DNA of 64,000 nt, taken from contig JAKEHY010000017.1 in assembly GCA_022614805.1 (NCBI GenBank), positions 81,758 to 145,757 on the forward strand. Reading direction: 5' to 3'. A model generated the notes under the pieces. It was not told the DNA's origin. It was given only the letters and a program-made list of their open reading frames with translations, and ran no database searches. Source of the DNA: Candidatus Zixiibacteriota bacterium (GTDB lineage: Bacteria > Zixibacteria > MSB-5A5 > DSPP01). Shown in pieces: positions 57,951-58,499 of the stretch. The translations under genes and the position numbers were made by a program. Within the stretch, counting starts at the first letter, position 1. Every line of letters starts with the position of its first letter.

Positions 57951-58499
57951 CTATTCTTTACTCCAGTAATCTTCCAGTTCCACGCCCAGGCCGTCGGCCA
58001 GGCGGTTGACGAAATTATAGTAGCCGACGATTTGACAGATGTCCAAAATGGCGGTGTCGTCAAAACCGACCAGGCGCAGTGCATCGATGTCCTCTTTTTT
58101 TATTTCCCAAGGTCTTTGGGTCAGCTTTACAGCATAGTCCAGCATCGTCCGGTCGGCTTCGGAAATCGGCGCCGTCTGATAATCGGCAATTAGAGCTTTC
58201 ACCAACTTTTCGTCTTTCGTAAGGCGACGGAGGCCCGCTCCGTGATGCCGTATTCAATAATGGCAGCGATTGGCGACGGAAACAACCACCGCAATCATTT
58301 CCCGCTGGACAAAAGAAAGCGGCGAAGGGCCACGCATTAAGTGGCGGTACAGCTCGTTATGCTTTTCCATTGAAGGTGGATTGGGGCCGTGAATACGGAT
58401 AATGTTGTCCACTCCGCCCCAGGCGGCGCGATAGCGGTCGTAGAGCTTTTTCAGCTCTTCAGAGGCCCGGTCTTCGGGGATGTAGTCAATGAAGGCCAT
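57951..58499 (-). CDS. AhpD-like peroxidase, candidate selenoprotein (CxxU)
   Basis: 182 residues if the UGA at 58254-58256 is read as selenocysteine (U82). Before and after the UGA the frame is continuous and both halves match peroxidase-related AhpD/carboxymuconolactone-decarboxylase proteins: VANRCHY-U-IRHHGAGLRRLT corresponds to the usual NRCxYCxxHH. U82 replaces the second Cys of CxxC, the peroxidatic Cys133 of M. tuberculosis AhpD. Glu67, Cys79 and His86 match Glu118, Cys130 and His137 in spacing. A SECIS-like hairpin follows the UGA. Alternative: a nonsense mutation in a Cys codon, but the conserved flanks argue against decay. Confidence 0.82.
58227..58256 (-). promoter_or_regulatory. 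Bacterial SECIS-like element with UGA (Sec) codon
   Basis: Read on the minus strand: UGA, 10 nt, then ACGGAG-CGGGC-CUCCGU, a perfect 6-bp stem and 5-nt loop of 17 nt. The E. coli fdhF minimal SECIS is also a 17-nt hairpin, 11 nt after UGA, with a GG in the loop, as here. An outer GGC/GCC pair can extend the stem. Confidence 0.75.

Follow-up and report, generated by a model that had tools for sequence, protein, structure and literature searches.

Gene structure and reading frame

The window, i.e. the whole stretch of 64,000 nucleotides of a Candidatus Zixiibacteriota genome that was analysed, carries on its minus strand a gene for a predicted selenoprotein of the AhpD/CMD fold (Table 1). When TGA is read as selenocysteine (Sec), the gene forms one frame of 182 amino acids, which ends with TAG and contains UGA solely at codon 82, within a CHYU motif at the place where the family has CxxC. 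An earlier note on this DNA had proposed that the UGA replaces a Cys of CxxC and that Glu67, Cys79, Sec82 and His86 keep the spacing of AhpD. In the joined frame all four residues lie at these positions, and the UGA pairs with Sec or Cys in the homologues. The 17-nt hairpin described there, starting 10 nt past the UGA, is likewise present and covers bases 14–30 counted from the U of UGA.

As had been expected of annotation pipelines, standard gene calling splits the gene: 58254-58499 is called as an ORF of 81 aa and 57951-58205 as one of 84 aa. By cutting such genes in two, standard annotation loses the catalytic residue; the joined frame corrects the genome at this locus. Across the window, frames interrupted by a single TGA and otherwise uncovered were scanned, and the AhpD-like gene was the only convincing case. 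A strong Shine-Dalgarno sequence is not apparent upstream of its ATG. On the same strand, upstream genes encode an unassigned protein of 143 aa, a protein of the aspartate ammonia-lyase type and aconitase, and downstream genes an enzyme of the D-cysteine desulfhydrase family and a Sir2-type deacylase. No specific substrate is suggested by these flanking genes.

Table 1. Features of the AhpD-like gene in the window and selenocysteine machinery in the host genome
Feature	Position	Strand	Basis
AhpD/CMD-fold selenoprotein gene (predicted), TIGR01926 peroxidase-related family, 182 codons	57951..58499	minus	Joined frame, family matches and relatives
In-frame UGA, predicted Sec82, CHYU motif	58254..58256	minus	Joined frame; 26/32 relatives share the TGA, 6/32 have Cys
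Cys79, proposed resolving partner of Sec82	58263..58265	minus	Joined frame; nearly all relatives keep Cys79
SECIS-like hairpin ACGGAG-CGGGC-CUCCGU	58227..58243	minus	6 bp, 5-nt loop; 41/42 pairing cells in its register group
SelA	C12:50982-52058		425.9 bits
SelB	C12:49081-50925		357.2 bits
tRNA-Sec (UCA)	C12:52293-52383		65.4 bits, over cut-off
SelD	C32:18832-19761 (= L017:1501-2430)		351.4 bits; in-frame TGA

Protein family and active site

The joined protein belongs by score to the NCBIfam family TIGR01926 'peroxidase-related enzyme' (148.4 bits over residues 4–174; cut-off 81.8) and also matches the Pfam family CMD (41.7 bits; cut-off 23). Profile search further revealed a weaker similarity to the sestrin family. 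Solved relatives align over nearly the full length (2pfx, 3c1l, 6k40 and 2oyo; E values from 1.7e-33 to 5.8e-27). The alignment with 2pfx (E 1.7e-33) runs through the UGA position, where a Cys of 2pfx pairs with the UGA. 2pfx and 3c1l are homologues over nearly the full length that differ from the protein described here in being Cys forms in the alignments shown. Two families of related AhpD-type (seleno)proteins, NF041238 (AhpD_rel_CFYUT; 43.5 bits, cut-off 175) and NF053654 (YciW-related; 31.5 bits, cut-off 310), do not include the gene as a member, because its scores are far under their cut-offs.

The catalytic residues of AhpD comprise a Cys-x-x-Cys pair and a His four residues after the second Cys, and the same spacing is found in the Sec protein. 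AhpD has a His between its two Cys, and Tyr occupies this place in CHYU. This exchange, and the fact that the weaker solved matches of the AhpD/CMD fold include sestrin and the debrominase Bmp8, would suit a selenoprotein of the same fold whose main reaction is of the thiol-disulfide or dehalogenation type. Such a reading disputes the function only and not the Sec, and we consider it unlikely, though still to be taken seriously, because both the family model and the nearest solved relatives bear the name peroxidase-related and because Glu67, Cys79, Sec82 and His86 keep the AhpD spacing. Judged from its family, the protein would be a peroxidase with a peroxide as substrate.

Selenocysteine machinery in the host genome

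The draft genome of the host comprises 2.56 Mb in 38 contigs and is about 93% complete. A search for selA, selB, selC and selD, named in the earlier note as a check, found all four (Table 1). SelA, SelB and tRNA-Sec lie adjacent on one strand in a cluster (C12:49081-52383), and ARAGORN independently reported a tRNA-SeC with the anticodon tca. The SelD frame has a TGA of its own in the context GGUAGK; therefore, SelD itself is likely a second selenoprotein of this genome. A separate SelB/EF-Tu-like match was seen near a contig end at locus L007 (C30:53091-53702 of the host genome); it contains two in-frame TAG codons and is perhaps a degraded or fragmentary gene.

Selenocysteine and cysteine forms among relatives

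For comparison, 98 genomes were searched, and matches were obtained in 27 of them, the window's own genome counted. A search of named genomes, which with its single-protein query reaches close relatives only, added three further loci. The resulting alignment comprised 32 relatives and the window gene, with proteins of the AhpD family aligning across the UGA. At the column of Sec82, 26 of the 32 relatives have TGA and six a Cys codon, while any other residue is absent (0/32). Since the TGA carriers include records named Calditrichaeota and Aquisalibacillus elongatus, the Sec form spans phyla. The gene of the latter, a named bacillus genome (L052), combines the UGA form with a hairpin of register group A described below, which suggests a transfer of the gene between phyla.

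The frame is conserved on both sides of the UGA, as had been claimed. Before and after the UGA, L050, for example, is 56 and 60% identical to the window protein, and L021 56 and 50%; because values are similar on both sides, the downstream part is not decaying. This bears on a pseudogene or sequencing error, in which a Cys codon (TGC or TGT) would have been mutated or misread to TGA. A single substitution from either codon would be enough, and Cys forms do occur among the relatives, but the presence of this very TGA in 26 relatives refutes the explanation in substance; with the protein conserved downstream of the UGA and a complete Sec machinery in the genome, it has next to no probability.

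SelA is present in each of the six genomes with the Cys form (L036, L037, L039, L040, L042 and L045); the two forms thus occur side by side among organisms that use selenocysteine. The search covered one further genome of the same genus as the host, which has SelA and no copy of the AhpD-like gene. Two more distant AhpD-type paralogues, L048 and L049, also carry TGA at the Sec82 column and apparently represent further selenoprotein families; in L048 the motif reads GAPU, i.e. the cysteine of CxxU is absent.

SECIS-like hairpin

Bacterial SECIS elements have been described by a stem of 4–16 bp, a loop of 3–9 nt with G in the first two loop positions, a distance of 16–37 nt from the UGA and a minimum free energy (MFE) of ≤ −7.5 kcal/mol (PMC13188914). 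Applying this published model (a SECIS prediction had likewise been named as a check), we found that the hairpin of the window gene fits with 6 bp, a 5-nt loop (CGGGC) bearing GG at positions 2–3 and thus G at position 2, and a loop start 16 nt past the UGA, with a borderline energy. The latter was −6.9 kcal/mol for the bare 17 nt, −7.5 kcal/mol with flanks and −11.1 kcal/mol once a three-pair lower stem is included; only this last version takes it clearly past the threshold. Compared with shuffled sequences, the MFE of the window hairpin was unremarkable (z −0.6), synonymous recoding of this hairpin alone was not significant (p 0.32), and an Rfam scan of the window gave nothing over the gathering scores. 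Because folding of the single gene yields no significant signal, the SECIS assignment rests on comparison.

In most Sec relatives the hairpin is kept with compensatory changes, in two registers, and it is absent from all six Cys relatives. Synonymous recoding that left the peptides unchanged gave a mean z of −1.9 for 27 Sec genes (15 at p ≤ 0.05) and of 0.05 for six Cys genes (0 at p ≤ 0.05); these tests are not independent because the genes share kinship. Group A, consisting of the window gene and five relatives, showed pairing in 41 of 42 cells compared with 14–22 when the register was slid by 1–3 nt, and group B (15 genes) in 104 of 105 cells compared with 45–60, whereby the slid controls favour both groups since these were picked after the hairpins had been seen. 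In group B, AT/CG and TA/CG exchanges occur at the neighbouring pairs 20-30 and 21-29. Judged from these sequence comparisons, conservation across relatives lifts the hairpin above chance.

Counted from the U of UGA, the loop centre lies at base 22 in group A and at base 25 in group B, so that the registers are 3 nt apart. A few Sec genes, e.g. L021, L024, L028, L046, L048 and L049, fit neither register. That the two registers reflect repeated conversion between Cys and Sec, or a SECIS that arose more than once in this gene family, is rather doubtful. With Sec and Cys forms in one bacterial class and the hairpin only beside a UGA, the genes provide a small data set on gain and loss of Sec. A reading of the UGA other than as Sec, either by a code in which it specifies another amino acid or by plain read-through, is barely conceivable in view of the long neighbouring ORFs free of internal UGA, the pairing of UGA with Cys and not with Trp or Gly in relatives, the tRNA-Sec with a UCA anticodon and the restriction of the hairpin to TGA genes.

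Proposed mechanism and known selenoproteins of this kind

Because the frame, the Sec/Cys column, the machinery and the hairpin agree, the joined gene is computationally assigned as a selenoprotein, in line with the true CxxU selenoprotein postulated in the earlier note. Absence of the sel genes, or decay of the gene with Cys relatives devoid of the hairpin, had been named there as grounds against it; the sel genes are present, the gene is without decay, and the lack of the hairpin in Cys relatives is as expected. With a probability of about 96%, we regard the locus as encoding a single selenoprotein with a SelB-decoded UGA, an AhpD-like thiol oxidoreductase with Sec82/Cys79 chemistry. The comparisons strongly support that UGA 82 is read as Sec with the aid of SelB; the actual insertion of Sec, the reduction of peroxide and the reductant are inferred.

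According to this proposal, SelB with Sec-tRNA would bind the hairpin just past the UGA, and codon 82 would be decoded as selenocysteine, yielding a probable all-alpha thiol oxidoreductase of the AhpD type. The peroxidatic attack would fall to Sec82, which a selenenylsulfide would link to Cys79, the putative resolving residue as judged from the AhpD family, while Glu67 and His86 may serve as proton relay as in AhpD.

AhpD-like CxxU selenoproteins were reported in 2005 in the Sargasso Sea selenoproteome with 27 sequences (PMC1088965) and again in GOS data (PMC2398784), and a 2026 review has the entry 'AhpD-like protein, TIGR01926, CxxU' (PMC13188914). The window gene adds a member to these catalogued selenoproteins and opens no new mechanism. 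With the AhpD-like TIGR01926 CxxU proteins it has in common the family above cut-off, the CxxU motif and a SECIS-type hairpin past the UGA (PMC1088965, PMC13188914); from the review entry, to which it is likened by description, the host lineage is the only known difference. Similarly, by description, it shares the CMD domain and CxxU with AhpD-like 2 (pfam02627) of the GOS data (PMC2398784).
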